Positions 1-29,027 of a stretch of 64,000 bases of DNA are shown in pieces. Position 1 is the stretch's first letter. Every line of letters starts with the position of its first letter. The notes beneath the pieces were generated by a model, which searched no databases, had not been told where the DNA came from, and saw only the letters and a program-made list of their open reading frames with translations. A program made the position numbers and the translations under genes. Source of the stretch: Aquificaceae bacterium (GTDB lineage: Bacteria > Aquificota > Aquificia > Aquificales > Aquificaceae); NCBI GenBank assembly GCA_026981975.1, contig JALSHV010000004.1, positions 1 to 64,000 on the forward strand, written 5' to 3'.

Positions 1-116
1 CCGGTGCCCATAGCGGAGGGGAAACACCCGGTTCCATTCCGAACCCGGCAGTTAAGCCCTCCAGCGCCGATGATACTGTGCCGGACCGCGGCACGGGAAA
101 GTAGGTCGGTGCCGGG
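1..116 (+). rRNA. rrf: 5S ribosomal RNA
   Basis: The conserved 5S loop sequence GTTCCATTCCGAACCCGG lies at 31-48 and CAGTTAAG at 49-56. Positions 1-8 pair with 108-115 to close helix I, with two G-U pairs. The true 5' end may be one or two bases outside the window. The RNA is far richer in G+C than the flanking coding DNA, as expected of a thermophile. No 16S, 23S or tRNA gene is visible, so this is either the end of an rRNA operon that starts upstream or a solitary 5S gene. Confidence 0.95.
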
Positions 117-129
117 GGTTTAAAATACA

Positions 130-21094: not shown

Positions 21095-21685
21095 TTAAAA
21101 ACCCTCCTTCCATAAGCCTTTTTTACCTTCTATGGCTTTTTTCTGAAGTTCTACAAAACGCTCAGCGTATTTTACATTAGGGGGGACAGTATAAACTGTA
21201 GCATAACCTTCTTGAATTAAAACTTCGTTTAGCATTCTACCGTCTGGGAGGTAAACGTAAGCTAAGAGTCTGCCGTATCTGTCGTGGAGTTGAACATCTG
21301 TTTCCAGATAAACAACCGTTCCCGGTGGGATTAACCTCTTTGTAAAAGCTGAAGCTTTCTTACCGAGCCTTATTATCTCTTCAACAGTGACACCGCTTCT
21401 CTGAGCATCTCTTAAAGCTTTTCTGTTCCTTCTGCTTTCGGGTGTGTCTATTCCTATGAGCCTTACCTTTATTCTTTCTCCATTTTCCAGCTTACACTGA
21501 AAGGTGTCTCCATCGTAAACTTTTATAACTCGGCAGGGAATTTTATCCTGAGAAGCTTCCTTCGCAGGCATTCCGCTCAAAGTTCTGAAGTGTTCTCCGA
21601 TTAACTCGTAGAAAGTGTAAAGAACTAAGAACACCAGCAATAAGGATATCGTTTTCCAAGCGGGAGAGGTTTTCTTCCTTGCCAT
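21095..21685 (-). CDS. membrane-tethered or secreted thermonuclease (SNase-like)
   Basis: 196 residues. A hydrophobic segment (about 13-26) acts as signal or anchor. The staphylococcal-nuclease fold follows: IKVYDGDTFQC, the KVRLIGIDTPESR active-site strand, and LHDRYGRLLAYV with the second catalytic arginine. Such enzymes cut extracellular or periplasmic DNA and RNA, perhaps for nutrient recovery or uptake. It starts the three-gene minus-strand unit and is divergent from the barrel cassette, with 39 bases between starts. Confidence 0.88.
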   Translation of the reverse strand: MARKKTSPAWKTISLLLVFLVLYTFYELIGEHFRTLSGMPAKEASQDKIPCRVIKVYDGDTFQCKLENGERIKVRLIGIDTPESRRNRKALRDAQRSGVTVEEIIRLGKKASAFTKRLIPPGTVVYLETDVQLHDRYGRLLAYVYLPDGRMLNEVLIQEGYATVYTVPPNVKYAERFVELQKKAIEGKKGLWKEGF

Positions 21686-21724: not shown

Positions 21725-22951
21725 GTGAAGGGGAGGGTTATTTCACTGCTTACCGCAATTACCTTTGCCTTTTCGGTAGAAGCTACGGATACTCTTAAAA
21801 GACACCTACAAGAAGGAGAATTTGAGGAAATACTACTCCTTTTAAAGGAAAAGAGAGCTATAGGTAGTATTTCAAGAGAAGAGTTAATAATTCTGGCAAG
21901 AGCCAATTTGGGTTTGGGGCTTGTAGAAGAAGCAAAAGAAATAGTAGAAGAACTTTTAGAAAGTAATCCTTCGGATCAGGAAGCTCTTTTACTGAAAGCG
22001 GAAATACTGATTGAAGAAGGGTATTACAAAAAGGCTAAGAAAATTCTTAAAAAGCTTCCTCCTTCTCCAAGAAAAAATTACCTGCTGGGAGTTTTATATT
22101 TAAACGTAGGAAATACAAGTCTTGCAAAGTCAATGTTTGCGATGATTCCTGAAACTGCACAGGAGAAGAGGTTTTCAAGATCCCTGCTGAAAGTGTATCC
22201 CGAGTTTACAGGTTATCTCACCCTTAGCGCAGGTTACGATTCCAATCCAACAGTTACTCCCGAGTTTATAGCAGGTAAAGGAAGTGTTGCCTATAAAACA
22301 GAAGGAAACTTAACTTTTAACGGAGAAAAAGCGTTAATAAGAGGGCGGATTTCTTATACAGGATACAGAACCGTTGAAGATTTTAATACCTTGAGAAGCA
22401 CCTTGGGAATAAGGTATTTGTTTGGAAAACTCTTTATTCCTGCTCTTGTTGATTATGTATCCCTCGGCGGAGACTTTTACAAATGGCAAGGAGATGCAGG
22501 ATTTGGTTTATTTGTAGGAGAAACAGCTCTAAGTTTTAAAGCGGGCTATCAAAATTACTACGGTGTGCAAAGAGATGGACCAAGGTTCTCCGCAACAGCT
22601 TCATATCTCTTTACAACACCTACATGGTTTGTAAATTTATCAGTCAGCTTAGGATACGAAAACGTTAAAAGTGCTGACTGGAAGAATTATTTTCTCTATC
22701 CTTACTTTAAAACCGCCTACGAAAAGGGAAGATTTATAGCTGATTTCAAAGGGGGTTTAGCCTTTTACACTTTTGAAAACACCGGCGGAAGAAGGGATAA
22801 CTTTCTGATTCTGTCACCTTCTTTAAAGGTGAAAATTTACAGGCTTATAAAGGGGGAGTTCTCCTTCAAATACAGTAGAAATTACTCCACCGTTGAGATT
22901 TACAGATATGAAAGAAGTGAGGTTTATGCAGGTGTGGGAGGTGTCTTTTAA
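21725..22951 (+). CDS. TPR / outer-membrane beta-barrel protein, Slam-like architecture
   Basis: 408 residues. A signal peptide (about 1-20) is followed by TPR-type helical repeats to about residue 155, then a region that I read as about 14 alternating strands, beginning GYLTLSAGYDSNP and ending in a C-terminal phenylalanine, the usual outer-membrane assembly signal. A periplasmic TPR domain with a 14-strand barrel is the plan of Slam proteins, which pass lipoproteins to the cell surface; PgaA and BcsC use a similar plan for polysaccharide export. A large lipoprotein is encoded two genes downstream. The start is GTG without a ribosome-binding site. Confidence 0.75.
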   Translation: MKGRVISLLTAITFAFSVEATDTLKRHLQEGEFEEILLLLKEKRAIGSISREELIILARANLGLGLVEEAKEIVEELLESNPSDQEALLLKAEILIEEGYYKKAKKILKKLPPSPRKNYLLGVLYLNVGNTSLAKSMFAMIPETAQEKRFSRSLLKVYPEFTGYLTLSAGYDSNPTVTPEFIAGKGSVAYKTEGNLTFNGEKALIRGRISYTGYRTVEDFNTLRSTLGIRYLFGKLFIPALVDYVSLGGDFYKWQGDAGFGLFVGETALSFKAGYQNYYGVQRDGPRFSATASYLFTTPTWFVNLSVSLGYENVKSADWKNYFLYPYFKTAYEKGRFIADFKGGLAFYTFENTGGRRDNFLILSPSLKVKIYRLIKGEFSFKYSRNYSTVEIYRYERSEVYAGVGGVF

Positions 22952-23514
22952 TGAGGATCTTATTAATTCTTTTGATTTCTGTAAGCTCAATTCTAAGTGT
23001 TGAAGTAGGGAAAGTAGAAGATTACAGAGGAAGAGTAGATCTTTTAAAGAAAGATCATCTTAAAGGTGTGTTGTTAAGCAAGTCAGGTATTTCTTTAGAA
23101 GTAGGGGATATTCTGCGCACAAAGAGAAACGGATACGCTCTTGTATCCTTTATAGACAGATCAAAAGTGGAACTCTTTGAATTTACAAGATTGAAAATTC
23201 TCGGCTACAGAGAAGTAAATCTTCAAAGAGGTATTGTAAAGTTTGAAGTAGAAAGTTTAAAAGATATAAAAGGCTTTAAAGTGAGAACTCCCCACGTTCT
23301 TATAGGAGTTAAGGGAACTGTCTTTTGGGTTTACGTATTTCCGGGCTTTACCCGTATTGTAGTGCAAGAAGGAGATGTGGAAAAAGTTTACAAATTCAGT
23401 ATAAGGGAGAAGTCTTGGGAACAGGTAGGCATTCAACCTGAAGTTTTCATAAGAGAAGAACCCTTTTCCGAAAAGCCACCCTTTGAAGCATTTCTTGAGG
23501 TAAGACTACAATGA
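22951..23514 (+). CDS. periplasmic FecR-domain protein
   Basis: 187 residues with a signal peptide (about 1-16) and a FecR-like beta domain: LEVGDILRTKRNGYALVSF, a strand pair FEVESLKDIKGFKVRTPHV and the hallmark IGVKGTVFWV. FecR domains occur in anti-sigma regulators and in stand-alone periplasmic proteins next to outer-membrane barrels; there is no N-terminal anti-sigma part or sigma-factor gene here, so the second type is likelier. It overlaps the barrel gene by one base (TAATG) and the lipoprotein gene by four (ATGA). Confidence 0.8.
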   Translation: MRILLILLISVSSILSVEVGKVEDYRGRVDLLKKDHLKGVLLSKSGISLEVGDILRTKRNGYALVSFIDRSKVELFEFTRLKILGYREVNLQRGIVKFEVESLKDIKGFKVRTPHVLIGVKGTVFWVYVFPGFTRIVVQEGDVEKVYKFSIREKSWEQVGIQPEVFIREEPFSEKPPFEAFLEVRLQ

Positions 23515-26162
23515 AACTGAAAACTCTTTTGCTTTTAACGTTTGTCGTTTACATAATAGGTTGTGAAAGATATACAGGTTCGGAGAATTCCTATATTGTA
23601 ATATCTGTTCCCTTTAACAATCAGATGACAACCTTAGCTGTTGATCCAAGAACACAGTGTGTCAGTTTGAAATTGGTATCTGCGGACAAATCAATTACAA
23701 GAGAATTAGCTCTAAGTCCTTCTTCTCCCAAAGGTGTAATAAGCGGATTGAAATCTGGCAGTTATCACCTTGAAGTTTTACTTACAAATGGTGAGAAAAG
23801 GGGAAACAGATGCACAGGAGTGCCTGTTGACTACGCAAAGGTAAAAGCCAATATAACCGACGGACAAAACACACTTTCACTGGTGATGCCGCGTGGTAAG
23901 TGGACTTTTAACTCTCCTGTAAATTTGAATACAACCTTAACTCTTTCCAATGAAAGAGTAGACGGATTTTTTTTAGTTCCCGATCCGCACAGATCTAAAG
24001 CTGAAGGTTATGATTACTTTCAAGCGGTGTTTTTAGGAAACAATTTACCTCAAGACGTGTGTGTTAAAGGTAGTTTTTGCATTTCAAGAGTAGAAGTGAG
24101 TATTTTCTTTGAAGGTCCTGACAAAGTTACAACGAAAGTGGGAACAGAACTAACAGGCATGAATCAGGAATTCTTAGGGTGGGTGCCTCTTTCACCCGGA
24201 ACAAAAGGACCGAGGTATTTCGGTATAATTTCAGCACCTCCGTGCGGTTACAAAAAACCTGAGACTCTTTTGAGCTGTTCTTACAATATATCGGAACCTT
24301 CTTTAAAGAACTTTATGAAAACAACAGTGGAAAAAGACGGATCTCTGAGAGGATATCTGTGGGAAATACACGTTGACTCAGAAAACACTACAAGGAACGT
24401 AATGTGTTACTCGGATCCTGACATGACTGATACCGTTCCCTGTCCTACAGAACTTATTTCGGATCCACAGAAATTTGAAATTTTATCCGTGAGTGCTAAC
24501 GTTCCCTCCGTGGAAACTTCCCAAGCGCTTTTTAGAAACGTCACTCTTAACGTATTAAAGAAGTATAAGTTTAAAAATGCGGAGGGAACAGTTTACTGGG
24601 TTTTAGATGAAAGAAGGCTGGTCTTTGACGTCGGAATTCACAGCTTTACCGCTTATCAAACCCCATTACAAAGTAATTTAGTAGAATCCAATCTGTTCTA
24701 CAGCACTCATACAAATTTGTTTGATATAAACGGTATATTTCCGGTATCTTACGATCTTTCCAAAGGTGCGAATTTAATTAGCAGAACATTTGATCCTACT
24801 GGCAGAGCGTTTTTAATTCCTCATGCTGTAGGTTTAAACTTTTACATGAAAACATACGCAGGCTTGTTTCCCAAGGACTTGATTTACTTTGATGGTTTTA
24901 ACTTTTTCAGCGTTCCCGCTGATAATCCTTCAGCTGGAGTCTACCAGCTATCAACTTATACACCTACCAGTGTCTTCTGTAATCTTAAAGTAATCCCAGA
25001 TCCTATGAAAGGCTTAGCTCATGTATTTATAAGAGAAGATAGTGCAGGGAACTGTTCTGCTAATGATATCACTTCAAGTCTTTTTTACTACATAAGATCG
25101 GATATGACCCCTTCGGATCAGCCTGTAGATATAACAAATATATTCCCTGCGCTTTCTATTACTGAAGGGGAAATTATGCTCCATCTCTCGGGGTTTTCTG
25201 TATCTCACTTCATAGGGTATGATTTCTCGGGGAATGTTTATGTATGTCCTTCAGATTTCTTGGCACCTTGCACAGTTCAAAACTACAGCACGGTTATGCT
25301 CTTGGGATATTTTACTAAAGCAGAATTGAGCTTTATTAATATTGACGGCGGTTTATGGTATTTTAACGGAACTGATCTTATAAACAGTTATATCCCTGTA
25401 GATTTGTGTGTTATAGGAGAAGATTATCTTTACTGTTTCCGCTCGGATACTAACACACAGAAAACAGAAGTGTTTAAATTTGATCATGAAACAAAATCTA
25501 AGAAAACTGTAGGAACTCTTAAGATTTATTTTGATCCTTCTATAAGTCCTGAAATACACATGACAAAAAACTACGTTCTTTTATTTGCATACGATACTTA
25601 TAACAATAAATTACTCTACGAAGTTATTAACAAAAAAACAGCTTCTACTTTTGAACTTCAACTTCCAGTTGGTAAAAGCCCTTATATGGATATATCAAGC
25701 CCTTACGGCATATACGGAATGGATTTTGAGTCAGGAGATTTTTGCTACGTAACGGAACACACTGTTCCGAATTTGGTTTGTATAGAAAATTCTAAATTTG
25801 CAGGTTTACTCATATCCGAACACGGATTTTTAACGGTTCCCTTTAAAGCAGTTCCTTACTACGAAAATATCATAAAGATCTTTATTCAAGAGGAATGTTC
25901 AAAAGCGAATTTTGATATTCCCTGTGTAGGTGGTTCTCTTTACTCCTATGCTCCTGATATGACAGGGAAGAGATTGATTATGGATTTATCAGAAGATGAA
26001 TACGTAGAAGAGGTAACAGGATTCGGTGATATCCTGTTGGTGCACACAAACACCCTTACAAGCGAAAGAAGGATATACGCTGTTAATATACTTAGCGGTT
26101 CTGTAAATCTAATAGATTTCGGCGGTATATACTCTGTAATAACTGTGCCTGGCATAAGGTGA
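23511..26162 (+). CDS. very large cysteine-rich lipoprotein
   Basis: 883 residues, no family recognised. It starts with a lipoprotein signal ending VYIIGC, so C18 would be lipidated. The mature part is rich in beta-forming and aromatic residues and has 18 further cysteines, several in close pairs (for example DVCVKGSFC and LCVIGEDYLYC), suggesting up to nine disulfides outside the cytoplasm. The C-terminal two thirds shows loosely repeating 40-60 residue units with aromatic-rich strands, compatible with a beta-propeller or beta-sandwich repeats. Its position next to a TPR-barrel protein makes it a candidate surface cargo. It overlaps the kinase gene by 4 bases (GTGA). Confidence 0.8.
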   Translation: MKLKTLLLLTFVVYIIGCERYTGSENSYIVISVPFNNQMTTLAVDPRTQCVSLKLVSADKSITRELALSPSSPKGVISGLKSGSYHLEVLLTNGEKRGNRCTGVPVDYAKVKANITDGQNTLSLVMPRGKWTFNSPVNLNTTLTLSNERVDGFFLVPDPHRSKAEGYDYFQAVFLGNNLPQDVCVKGSFCISRVEVSIFFEGPDKVTTKVGTELTGMNQEFLGWVPLSPGTKGPRYFGIISAPPCGYKKPETLLSCSYNISEPSLKNFMKTTVEKDGSLRGYLWEIHVDSENTTRNVMCYSDPDMTDTVPCPTELISDPQKFEILSVSANVPSVETSQALFRNVTLNVLKKYKFKNAEGTVYWVLDERRLVFDVGIHSFTAYQTPLQSNLVESNLFYSTHTNLFDINGIFPVSYDLSKGANLISRTFDPTGRAFLIPHAVGLNFYMKTYAGLFPKDLIYFDGFNFFSVPADNPSAGVYQLSTYTPTSVFCNLKVIPDPMKGLAHVFIREDSAGNCSANDITSSLFYYIRSDMTPSDQPVDITNIFPALSITEGEIMLHLSGFSVSHFIGYDFSGNVYVCPSDFLAPCTVQNYSTVMLLGYFTKAELSFINIDGGLWYFNGTDLINSYIPVDLCVIGEDYLYCFRSDTNTQKTEVFKFDHETKSKKTVGTLKIYFDPSISPEIHMTKNYVLLFAYDTYNNKLLYEVINKKTASTFELQLPVGKSPYMDISSPYGIYGMDFESGDFCYVTEHTVPNLVCIENSKFAGLLISEHGFLTVPFKAVPYYENIIKIFIQEECSKANFDIPCVGGSLYSYAPDMTGKRLIMDLSEDEYVEEVTGFGDILLVHTNTLTSERRIYAVNILSGSVNLIDFGGIYSVITVPGIR

Positions 26163-27946
26163 AGGGAAAGATTTTCTTAGGCTTTGTAGTTTTTATTCTC
26201 CTTGTTGTAGTAAACGTAGCCTTTATACTGAATTTGAGGAATCTTCCTTACGTTAACTATTACATATTACTTCTTGCTATAAACATAGACTTACTTGCCC
26301 TAATTGTAATTATAGCTGTAATTCTGAGAAAGCTGATAAAGATATATCTCGGAACCCGCAGGAATATTCTCAGAAGAAAGCTTGCCAACATTCTTTTCTT
26401 TTCCCTTTTTCTTCCCCTTTTGATACTGAACGTGTTTTCTATTGTAGTGGTAATACAATCTACTAAAACCTACTTGAGTTCTAAAACACGTGCACTTTCC
26501 AGTTCAGCTGAGAGTGTTTACAGAAACTTATACAACTATGAAATTTCAAGAATTCGTATATACAGAGATGTAATCACCGCCCTCTTAGAGAGCGGTCTTT
26601 TTGAAGAAGTCAATAAACTCAAGGAAGTAGAAAGTATAACAAGAGTTGTAGAGTGTGAGTTTGAAGTTGCGGAAGGAGAAATGGTATACACACTGTGTAT
26701 AAACACCGCAAACGGGAGTTATAGGGTAATTCTTAAAAAGGATCTCAGCCTTATAAGAGATGTTTCTTCCTTTGGTGAGCTTGCCCTTGATGTAAGAGCT
26801 TTTGTAAAGACAAGGGATATAATAACAGGGATTTTCATCTTTTTTATAGTCTTTATAGCATTGCTTACGGTATTAGCTACTCTGTGGTTGAGTATGCTGG
26901 TAGCAAGACATGTAAGTGAACCCATAGAGCGATTGTCCGATAGAGCTATGCGTATAGCTGAAGGCAACCTTGATATAGAAGTGGAAGAAGAAGTAACCGG
27001 TGATGAAATAGAAGAATTATCAAAAGCCTTCAGAAAGATGAAGGAAAACTTAAAGGAAATGTACAATAAATTAAAAAGGGAAAGAGATCTTTTGGAAAGA
27101 CTTCTTGATGCTCTACCTGTCGGTATTCTTTACATAGACGAAAAAAACAGTTGTAGAACTAACAGAACTTTCAGAGAACTTTTCGGCAATGAAACAGATG
27201 TAAAGTCTGTCCTTCAACAAGCAAAAAACAGCAGAAACCTGCGTGTGGAACATCTAAAAGGATCAGAAGGAGATTTATATCTTATTGAAGATATCAGTTC
27301 TATAGTTCTTGCGGAGCGTTTTAAAACTTGGCAAGATGCTGTTAAGAGAATAGCTCACGAAATAAAGAATCCCCTTACTCCCATAAGACTTAATCTTGAA
27401 AGACTTGAAAGGTATTCAGAAAGAGGTGATTTGGAATCCCGTAAACTACAGGAACTTGTAAAGCTTATACTTAAAGAAATTGATCGTATAAGCGGGCTTA
27501 TAAATCAGTTTAAACACCTTACACCTTCTCACTCACTGCGTTTTGAGACTTTTAAACTTTCTGACTTATTGGAGGATATTAAAAAACTGTATTCTTCAGC
27601 AGGAGTAAATATAGTTCTTAAGGGAGATAAAACTATAAGAGGAGATGTTTCTCTGCTTAAGGAAATGTTTTACAACCTTGTAAACAACAGTATTGAATGG
27701 GGTGCTAAAAGTATAACAGTTCATGTAAAGGGAAATAGAATTGAATACCAAGATGACGGAAAAGGAATAAAAGAAGAAGATCTTCAAAATGTATTCATGC
27801 CTTACTATACCAGCAACCCTCGCGGAATGGGTATAGGTATGGCTGTAGTTAAAAAGATAGTAGAAGATCACGGCTGGAGAATTAAAGCTCTTCCTTCACA
27901 AAAAGGTGCGCTTTTCGTTATAGAACTTGCTGAGCTACGCCACTAG
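26159..27946 (+). CDS. NtrY-like membrane sensor histidine kinase
   Basis: 595 residues starting at a GTG overlapping the previous stop. Hydrophobic helices fill about 5-105, followed by a short extracytoplasmic domain with two cysteines, another helix near 225-245, a HAMP linker (SEPIERLSDRAMRIAEGN), a PAS-like segment, the H-box RIAHEIKNPLTPIRLNLER, the N-box NLVNNSIEWGA, and G-boxes DDGKGI and GMGIGMAVVKKI. The multi-helix N-terminus resembles NtrY. No response regulator such as NtrX follows, so the partner is encoded elsewhere. Translational coupling to the envelope genes suggests it senses their state. Confidence 0.88.
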   Translation: MKGKIFLGFVVFILLVVVNVAFILNLRNLPYVNYYILLLAINIDLLALIVIIAVILRKLIKIYLGTRRNILRRKLANILFFSLFLPLLILNVFSIVVVIQSTKTYLSSKTRALSSSAESVYRNLYNYEISRIRIYRDVITALLESGLFEEVNKLKEVESITRVVECEFEVAEGEMVYTLCINTANGSYRVILKKDLSLIRDVSSFGELALDVRAFVKTRDIITGIFIFFIVFIALLTVLATLWLSMLVARHVSEPIERLSDRAMRIAEGNLDIEVEEEVTGDEIEELSKAFRKMKENLKEMYNKLKRERDLLERLLDALPVGILYIDEKNSCRTNRTFRELFGNETDVKSVLQQAKNSRNLRVEHLKGSEGDLYLIEDISSIVLAERFKTWQDAVKRIAHEIKNPLTPIRLNLERLERYSERGDLESRKLQELVKLILKEIDRISGLINQFKHLTPSHSLRFETFKLSDLLEDIKKLYSSAGVNIVLKGDKTIRGDVSLLKEMFYNLVNNSIEWGAKSITVHVKGNRIEYQDDGKGIKEEDLQNVFMPYYTSNPRGMGIGMAVVKKIVEDHGWRIKALPSQKGALFVIELAELRH

Positions 27947-28204
27947 ACATTCTCGAAAAGTTACTAGGGAAAGGGTGGGTTTTTTCCTGCCATGGCTCAG
28001 GGAGTGTTTGAAAGAATGTGAAACTTAAAGAAACCGCTGGACTGGAAGAACTGCTGGATAGGTCTGTGGAAGAGAGAAAAACTCAACTTCAAAAAGCTTC
28101 CTAACAACTATCCGTTAGATATGGGAGCTTAATACTATTTCTATTCTAAAGTTTTTCACGATGTGAGTAGTTTGCACTCAAGCTGCTGAGAGGAAAAGTA
28201 TGTC
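27947..28204 (+). other. non-coding stretch with decayed reading frames
   Basis: No intact gene is seen. Short peptides with gene-like composition occur in different frames: a frame starting GTG at about 28018 reads LKETAGLEELLDRSVEERKT before a stop, and the neighbouring frame ends NFKKLPNNYPLDMGA. This looks like one or two genes broken by frameshifts, next to the disrupted mazEF pair. No inverted repeats of an insertion sequence were recognised. Confidence 0.4.
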
Positions 28205-28432
28205 TTGCTTCAAAGATGGGGAAACAGTCTGGCGATTAGGATTCTTGCAGATATAGTTAGACTGCTGAATCTACATCGGGGTTCAGAGCTTATTATTGAG
28301 ATGAGCAAAGAAGGAATAGTGATTAAGCCTGAAAGGAGTAGAGATCTGGATAAGCTGTTGGATAGAATAACTCCTGAGAATGTTCATAACGAGGTTGACT
28401 GGGGCGGAAGGGAGGGAAATGAAGTCTGGTAA
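28205..28432 (+). pseudogene. mazE: MazE-like antitoxin, probably with damaged start
   Basis: The 75-codon frame matches MazE along its whole length: LQRWGNSLAIRI (AbrB-type DNA-binding strand), a middle segment with GIVIKPER, and the ending DRITPENVHNEVDWG...EVW that wraps around MazF. Normally it starts with ATG a few codons before the LQRWGNS motif. Here the only ATG (28200) is out of frame by one base, leaving a TTG at 28205 as the only in-frame start, which suggests a one-base loss. The neighbouring toxin gene is truncated, so the pair appears inactive. Confidence 0.75.
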
Positions 28433-28587
28433 TTACGCACCAAAAATACAATGAGAAAACCTCTCTCGGTATATTTGTTCCGATAACCTCAAAAGCTAAA
28501 GGCTATCCCTTTGAGGTTCCTGTAAAAGGGAAAAGGATAAATAGTAAAATTGATGTCTATCAACACTTCAAAGGGAAGAATGGGTGA
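28419..28587 (+). pseudogene. mazF: MazF toxin remnant with internal deletion
   Basis: The start at 28419 overlaps the mazE end as in active pairs and encodes M-K-S-G-N-Y-A-P-K, a normal MazF N-terminus, then hits a stop. A second frame from 28447 encodes YNEKTSLGIFVPITSKAKGY and PFEV, which correspond to MazF about 30 residues further on. The region between, including the RNase active-site strand with G-D-I/L-W-x-D-F-D-P, is missing, and the sequence after PFEVPVKGKR no longer looks like MazF. The toxin is therefore dead. Confidence 0.75.
28550..28563. promoter_or_regulatory. FNR-type palindrome TTGAT-N4-ATCAA
   Basis: TTGATGTCTATCAA is a perfect match to the FNR/CRP-family consensus TTGATnnnnATCAA. 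It lies 20 bases before the GTG start of the 147-residue protein, inside the mazF remnant. That is too close for classical activation of this start, so it might repress, act from a different start, or be a chance match. Confidence 0.35.
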
Positions 28588-29027
28588 GGGTGAAGGATTA
28601 TGAGGTATTGAAAAAAGAGCTTGAGACTGGGGCTAAAGCTGTCATGAAGAAGAAGCCCATAAGCATACGCCTGAGTGAGAAAGACCTGATGCTCTTGAAG
28701 AGAAAGGACATGCGTGTAAAGAAAGTTCTCACCTCTGGGGGAGAAGAGAAGGAGGTGTGGTTTGTTCACGTGAGGGAAGGAAAGTTCGGGAAAGAGAGGG
28801 AAGCTCTCATATACTTTTTCGGATTTGAGTGGAAAACTCTGTGGGAAAGATGGTTCTCTCAGCTAAAGCCCGATGATTACATCTTCACCTACACCATCAA
28901 ATACCCGAAAAGCACTAAGACCTTAATCCTCAAACAGGATACAGTAAAGAGGTTTTTCCGGGAAGAGGTTAACGCTCACAGGAAAAATGGAACGGTTTAT
29001 ATTCCCTACTGGAAGCTCCGTCCGTGA
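28584..29027 (+). CDS. hypothetical protein, possibly horizontally acquired
   Basis: 147 residues, not recognised. The N-terminal part KKPISIRLSEKDLMLLKRK resembles the strand-helix of ribbon-helix-helix DNA-binding proteins; the rest is basic and aromatic-rich (FFGFEWKTLWERWFSQL). The GTG start overlaps the stop of the mazF remnant (GTGA); an internal ATG at 28644 is an alternative. Codons such as CTC, CCC and ATC are much more frequent than in neighbouring genes, suggesting transfer. Its end overlaps the convergent rlmB by 22 bases. Confidence 0.6.
   Translation: MRVKDYEVLKKELETGAKAVMKKKPISIRLSEKDLMLLKRKDMRVKKVLTSGGEEKEVWFVHVREGKFGKEREALIYFFGFEWKTLWERWFSQLKPDDYIFTYTIKYPKSTKTLILKQDTVKRFFREEVNAHRKNGTVYIPYWKLRP

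Follow-up and report, generated by a model that had tools for sequence, protein, structure and literature searches.

Organization of the locus

The DNA analyzed in this study is a 64,000-nucleotide stretch (the window; contig JALSHV010000004.1, positions 1 to 64,000) of the 1.61-Mb genome of an Aquificaceae bacterium, labelled G000. It was compared with relatives in the Aquificaceae, and conservation was surveyed in a sample of 136 Aquificota genomes. Four consecutive genes of the window encode a TPR protein with a predicted outer-membrane beta-barrel, a secreted FecR-domain protein, a large lipoprotein and a membrane histidine kinase. The conserved unit is the first three of these genes in two species, and the first two (the barrel-FecR core) in six. 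The features of the locus are as follows.

21725..22951, plus strand: TPR protein with a predicted 14-stranded outer-membrane beta-barrel; 408 amino acids (aa), GTG start, C-terminal Phe
22951..23514, plus strand: FecR-domain protein, secreted to the periplasm; 187 aa; its start and the barrel stop share 1 base
23511..26162, plus strand: large, probably disulfide-rich lipoprotein; 883 aa; Cys18 anchor; probable N-terminal immunoglobulin (Ig)-like domain and C-terminal beta-propeller
26159..27946, plus strand: membrane histidine kinase with HAMP, weak PAS, HisKA and HATPase_c domains; not a conserved member of the cassette
26154..26166, plus strand: putative rearrangement junction ATAAGGTGAAGGG; the lipoprotein TGA stop lies inside the kinase start context AAGGTGAAG
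21095..21685, minus strand: divergent thermonuclease-like gene (SNase); marks the other side of the putative junction and follows metG in relatives

All genes of the cassette lie on the plus strand and overlap, in gene order, by 1 base (TAATG), 4 bases (ATGA) and 4 bases (GTGA). The coordinates and junction letters of the four open reading frames (ORFs) agree with the initial annotation, which had been made from the sequence alone and had proposed a surface-lipoprotein export unit of four genes, including a FecR-type sensor and its own membrane kinase.

Conservation of the barrel and FecR genes

A barrel-only profile detected the barrel in 6 of the 136 Aquificota genomes, and in all six the FecR gene was located directly downstream, so that the link between FecR and barrel suggested in the initial annotation was upheld throughout. 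In the FecR tree, the window copy grouped with the barrel-linked FecRs, apart from ubiX-linked paralogues (100/100). A second secreted FecR-domain gene of G000 (L064:7903-8607, contig C13) adjoins a ubiX-like flavoprotein gene, as it does through much of the genus, and forms a clade of its own.

One other species, G015 of the same genus, has the barrel, FecR and lipoprotein genes side by side (locus L056). Their order and the 1- and 4-base overlaps are retained there, and the barrel orthologue is 39% identical; the kinase is not found at this locus. All four genes occur together only in G000. Co-occurrence in relatives, which the initial annotation had named as a check, was thus found for barrel, FecR and lipoprotein and not for the kinase, and the four-gene unit was not borne out.

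The FecR domain of the window protein (PF04773, E = 2.5e-13) follows an N-terminal signal-peptide-like stretch. Pfam showed no match to an anti-sigma N-terminal domain in this protein, and no sigma factor was present among the neighbouring genes checked. The unit resembles the FecA-FecR-FecI system in its outer-membrane barrel, periplasmic FecR domain and signal-across-envelope logic, but it has neither a TonB-dependent receptor nor an extracytoplasmic function (ECF) sigma factor, and its FecR starts with a signal peptide instead of a recognised anti-sigma N-terminus. By the features tested, the module would not be an anti-sigma FecR system, but it may resemble FecA-FecR in logic.

Properties of the TPR-barrel protein

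The barrel protein contains TPR repeats (TPR_19, PF14559; E = 5e-15). Its AlphaFold model, built from six sequences (mean predicted local distance difference test score [pLDDT], 81), shows approximately nine helices at residues about 30-155, followed by 14 strands at residues 160-407 that end near the C-terminal Phe408. The TPR domain, the approximately 14 barrel strands and the terminal Phe described in the initial annotation are therefore recovered by Pfam and by the structure prediction. When the model was compared with the PDB using Foldseek, the leading matches were BcsC, at the top, OmpG and general porins, and PgaA was in the list. These structural matches are at the level of barrels, and sequence searches of the PDB returned essentially TPR matches only. 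A contig scan with one short motif, which distant relatives could escape, returned five Aquificaceae metagenome-assembled genomes and no barrel relatives beyond Aquificota.

BcsC and PgaA are exopolysaccharide exporters that likewise combine TPRs with a barrel, and the window protein could export a polysaccharide or small molecule in the same manner, with the lipoprotein and FecR as accessory envelope proteins. In favour of this are a weak resemblance to PgaA and BcsC at the TPR level and the Foldseek list headed by BcsC and including PgaA. We regard it as improbable: the similarity spreads across generic barrels, the TPR part of the window protein is shorter, its barrel has 14 predicted strands compared with 16 in PgaA (PMC8406197), and the neighbouring genes that were examined included no glycosyltransferase, synthase, deacetylase or other polysaccharide gene.

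The initial annotation had instead likened the barrel to Slam proteins (type XI secretion; PF04575, DUF560), to which it is similar in its N-terminal periplasmic TPR, its predicted 14-strand barrel and the lipoprotein gene located two positions further along in G000 and G015. However, PF04575/DUF560 did not match the barrel at E ≤ 10 and was absent from the 25 families listed for six family members, Foldseek placed BcsC, OmpG and general porins first, and the barrel invariably has a FecR gene after it. Because the barrel homology that defines Slam was tested and not found, the protein may work like Slam but is not classed as Slam. The layout and the neighbouring lipoprotein gene noted initially thus stand, and Slam membership does not; likewise, in the proposed structural comparison with Slam, PgaA and BcsC, the strand layout is Slam-like and the best Foldseek matches are not Slam. 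Export of the lipoprotein in a Slam-like manner is possible by analogy. The barrel would then flip the lipoprotein to the cell surface, and FecR would be an assembly or guidance factor rather than a sensor. The retention of the lipoprotein gene in G015 with the same overlaps is in favour of this explanation, which we nevertheless consider somewhat unlikely in view of the points above and of those given below for the lipoprotein and the cyclase.

A variant of the barrel is found in genus g11 (G073, G076 and G081), where it forms an in-frame fusion with an exported protein encoded upstream; the fusion loci are L097:5-1609, L098:3-1997 and L099:954-4292. The upstream protein carries a choice-of-anchor U domain (over the cut-off in two of three) and a GGC-hydrophobic-RR stretch weakly similar to JDVT/Synerg-CTERM (below the cut-off), after which comes a second hydrophobic, signal-peptide-like stretch. 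The fusion is probably a polyprotein that is split after export. MYXO-CTERM proteins become anchored at the surface through a comparable tag that contains a cysteine (PMC11980579). The barrel may thus have a lipid-anchored surface protein as its recurring partner, as Slam-like export would have it. Against this, a search of genus g11 for a MrtJ/JDVT sorting protease gave only CPBP matches, all below the cut-off, and controls matched likewise, so that no such protease was specifically found.

The lipoprotein

The third gene was described initially as encoding an 883-residue lipoprotein with 18 further cysteines and no recognised family, and this description was confirmed: the lipobox is IIG-C18, the 19 Cys comprise the anchor and 18 more, and sequence searches found no Pfam family and no PDB relative. 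The Cys content is 2.15 per 100 aa compared with a window gene mean of approximately 1.03, and 17 of the 19 Cys are kept in a homologue with only 28% identity. Since the residues are both enriched and conserved at this level of identity, they are beyond chance, and their conservation argues for conserved disulfides. In G015, a homologue occupies the same position in the module, and the window protein ends a few residues before the point where that homologue ends.

The lipoprotein was modelled with low confidence (mean pLDDT 39.5), with residues 640-870 mostly at 60-89. Its structural matches are almost all beta-propellers, and its N-terminus is beta-sandwich-like. A probable architecture, to be taken as a lead, is an N-terminal Ig-like domain with a C-terminal beta-propeller. 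Known Slam cargo proteins end in an 8-strand barrel (PMC8406197), whereas the C-terminus here is propeller-like in the low-confidence model. The cargo-like protein is also distinguished by its 883-aa length, its disulfide-rich character and its probable Ig-like and propeller parts.

One early scan with the lipoprotein as query gave no matches. Relatives of its N-terminal part were found in other Aquificota that lack the barrel, as lipoproteins of approximately 440-530 aa that often stand beside one of approximately 920 aa, and its C-terminal part matched a 529-aa lipoprotein in G055. The lipoprotein is thus a mosaic whose relatives do not always accompany the barrel. Pairs of large lipoproteins (approximately 497 and 932 aa) are present in family f3 at L074:6730-11035, L075:5015-9329 and L105:1002-5307; the shorter member has its N-terminal part in common with the window lipoprotein, and the pairs at L074 and L075 are followed by a membrane protein of approximately 515 aa. 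In G022, FecR is followed by a lipoprotein gene, an arrangement that would suit Slam-like export; however, no homology between its product and the window lipoprotein was detected. The window lipoprotein may serve the barrel as a surface partner or be exported by it as cargo.

Rearrangement at the kinase gene

Pfam identified HAMP, HisKA, HATPase_c and a weak PAS domain in the kinase, and its best NCBIfam match was PnpS, far below the cut-off. It had been called NtrY-like; no NtrY model was among the matches listed, and the linkage to phoU in relatives also speaks against that name. No response-regulator gene such as ntrX is located 3′ of the kinase, where a degenerate MazE/MazF stretch lies instead. 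Orthologues, to which the kinase aligns over its full length, turned up in almost every genome of the genus and, among the other Aquificaceae genera searched, in most, and phoU directly precedes the kinase in 14 of the 15 loci of relatives examined. In G015, the orthologue is beside phoU on a contig separate from the module. The kinase thus resembles PhoR/PnpS-type kinases beside phoU in the position of its orthologues and in its best (below cut-off) NCBIfam match, but differs in being itself separated from phoU. Its membership of the unit, as first proposed, is supported neither by the G015 arrangement nor by the phoU linkage.

On G000 contig C8 (L158:7864-10141), phoU has no kinase after it, and metG faces phoU tail to tail. 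The thermonuclease-like gene comes directly after metG in 8 of 11 relatives, whereas in G000 it is divergent and lies beside the cassette. A single inversion with breakpoints between metG and the nuclease gene and between phoU and the kinase would yield exactly these two arrangements, namely phoU and metG converging and the nuclease and kinase genes pointing apart. We infer from the adjacencies, on contigs that are not joined, that one inversion made both. At the kinase start, several relatives read phoU-...AAGGTGAAGCG and the window reads lipoprotein-...ATAAGGTGAAGGG; the start context AAGGTGAAG is common to the window kinase and the phoU-kinase junctions of relatives. Because the kinase's own start context contains the lipoprotein TGA stop, the overlap between the two genes is best read as a product of the junction. 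These comparisons indicate that the kinase gene is core to the Aquificaceae and normally stands beside phoU, and that it was joined to the cassette by rearrangement in G000 alone.

It is conceivable that the kinase has since become a working part of the module, the lipoprotein and FecR now signalling through it as a new lipoprotein-fed two-component system. The GTGA overlap and shared gene direction suggest co-expression, no promoter-like sites above chance were detected in the region, and the full-length alignment with orthologues is also in keeping with this proposal. We think it very doubtful, as the junction itself accounts for the overlap, the phoU linkage of orthologues across genera places the ancestral job elsewhere, and G015 carries the module without the kinase.

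Regarding the sequence context, a foreign origin of the cassette was rejected on base composition (GC 0.36-0.39 compared with a window gene mean of 0.387). Promoters and terminators of the region showed no clear excess over shuffled sequence, and an Rfam scan gave 5S rRNA at window positions 1-117 as its sole match. Just 3′ of the kinase, at 28202-28584, is a degenerate MazE/MazF-type toxin-antitoxin remnant (MazE, E = 6e-10; a MazF-like piece in a different frame, E = 0.003), and a 147-aa ORF without a Pfam match (28584-29027) sits between this remnant and an rRNA methyltransferase-like gene.

Linkage of barrel and FecR to a CHASE2 cyclase

In G020, G073 and G081, the gene next to barrel-FecR encodes a CHASE2 cyclase (in G020, CHASE2 E = 3e-47 and cyclase domain E = 2.5e-25), and after it come genes for an MBL-fold protein, a cNMP-binding-like protein and a GAF-like protein. 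Families of this cluster were tested on the G020 and G060 versions, and the MBL-fold protein matched PDEase_II and cyclic-nucleotide phosphodiesterase families. In G076, a contig breaks off within the FecR gene, and a second contig carries a FecR tail together with the cyclase at its end. In two genomes of family f3 (same order), the cyclase likewise has FecR before it, but there is no barrel. This linkage of the cyclase to barrel-FecR in four Aquificaceae species was missed by the initial annotation; it makes signalling as plausible as export, and Slam-like export leaves it unexplained.

A cluster of TPR, FecR, CHASE2 adenylate cyclase and phosphodiesterase genes has been published for Campylobacterota (PMC9239204). 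The module shares with it the core pair of a FecR-domain protein adjoining a TPR protein, to which the sister Aquificaceae add the CHASE2 cyclase and the MBL-fold phosphodiesterase-like protein. It differs in that G000 has no adjacent cyclase, its cyclase and phosphodiesterase-like genes being elsewhere, and in the presence of the large lipoprotein. The sole CHASE2 cyclase of G000 is on contig C10, together with MBL phosphodiesterase-like and Crp-/cAMP-receptor-like genes, and without FecR.

A candidate trans-envelope sensing module

Gene order, overlaps, domain content, barrel-FecR conservation, the cyclase linkage in four relatives and the changed adjacencies are direct observations. Their best-supported general reading is a second-messenger pathway whose front end, in the outer membrane and periplasm, is formed by barrel and FecR. 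For G000, we tentatively favour, without holding it to be probable, a three-gene sensing module of the outer membrane and periplasm that is the front end of a trans-envelope pathway and has been uncoupled from its cyclase. The TPR-barrel would be placed in the outer membrane, with the TPR domain on the periplasmic side. On the same membrane, the lipoprotein would be its partner, which the barrel probably holds or displays. Periplasmic FecR would read the state of the barrel and lipoprotein and hand a signal to an inner-membrane sensor. In other Aquificaceae this sensor would be the adjacent CHASE2 cyclase, acting through cyclic AMP (cAMP) and a cAMP-receptor-like protein. Since cyclase, phosphodiesterase-like and cAMP-receptor-like genes still stand together in G000, the C10 proteins would be the likeliest output, acting in trans. 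The kinase, which would have entered the transcription unit by the inversion away from phoU, probably shares the expression of the module.

Several points weigh against the sensing module. Neither of the lipoprotein-bearing genomes, G000 and G015, has a cyclase or phosphodiesterase gene beside the module, so that a sensing role there is argued by analogy. The window barrel and the cyclase-linked versions are far apart in sequence (22-28% identity), the lipoprotein accompanies the barrel only in the genus of G000 and its fold model is the low-confidence one described above, and no ligand, contact or signal for this barrel family was found in the literature.

Display and sensing might also be combined. 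A Slam-like barrel of separate descent would display its own surface protein (the lipoprotein, or the fused exported protein in g11) and report its state via FecR to an inner-membrane cyclase or kinase. We judge this unlikely; if true, one device would serve both surface display and trans-envelope signalling.

Overall, the initial observation was accurate and its export-and-kinase unit of four genes was an over-reading; a three-gene module with a barrel-FecR core remains. The locus illustrates that even a perfect overlap of 4 bases may be the scar of a rearrangement rather than a sign of shared function. To our knowledge, it has not been established how CHASE2 cyclases, a widespread sensor type, get signals from beyond the outer membrane. 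The Aquificaceae loci are a small, conserved candidate for such a route, consisting of barrel, FecR and cyclase, and their lipoprotein-paired and fused versions show which parts of the module travel together.

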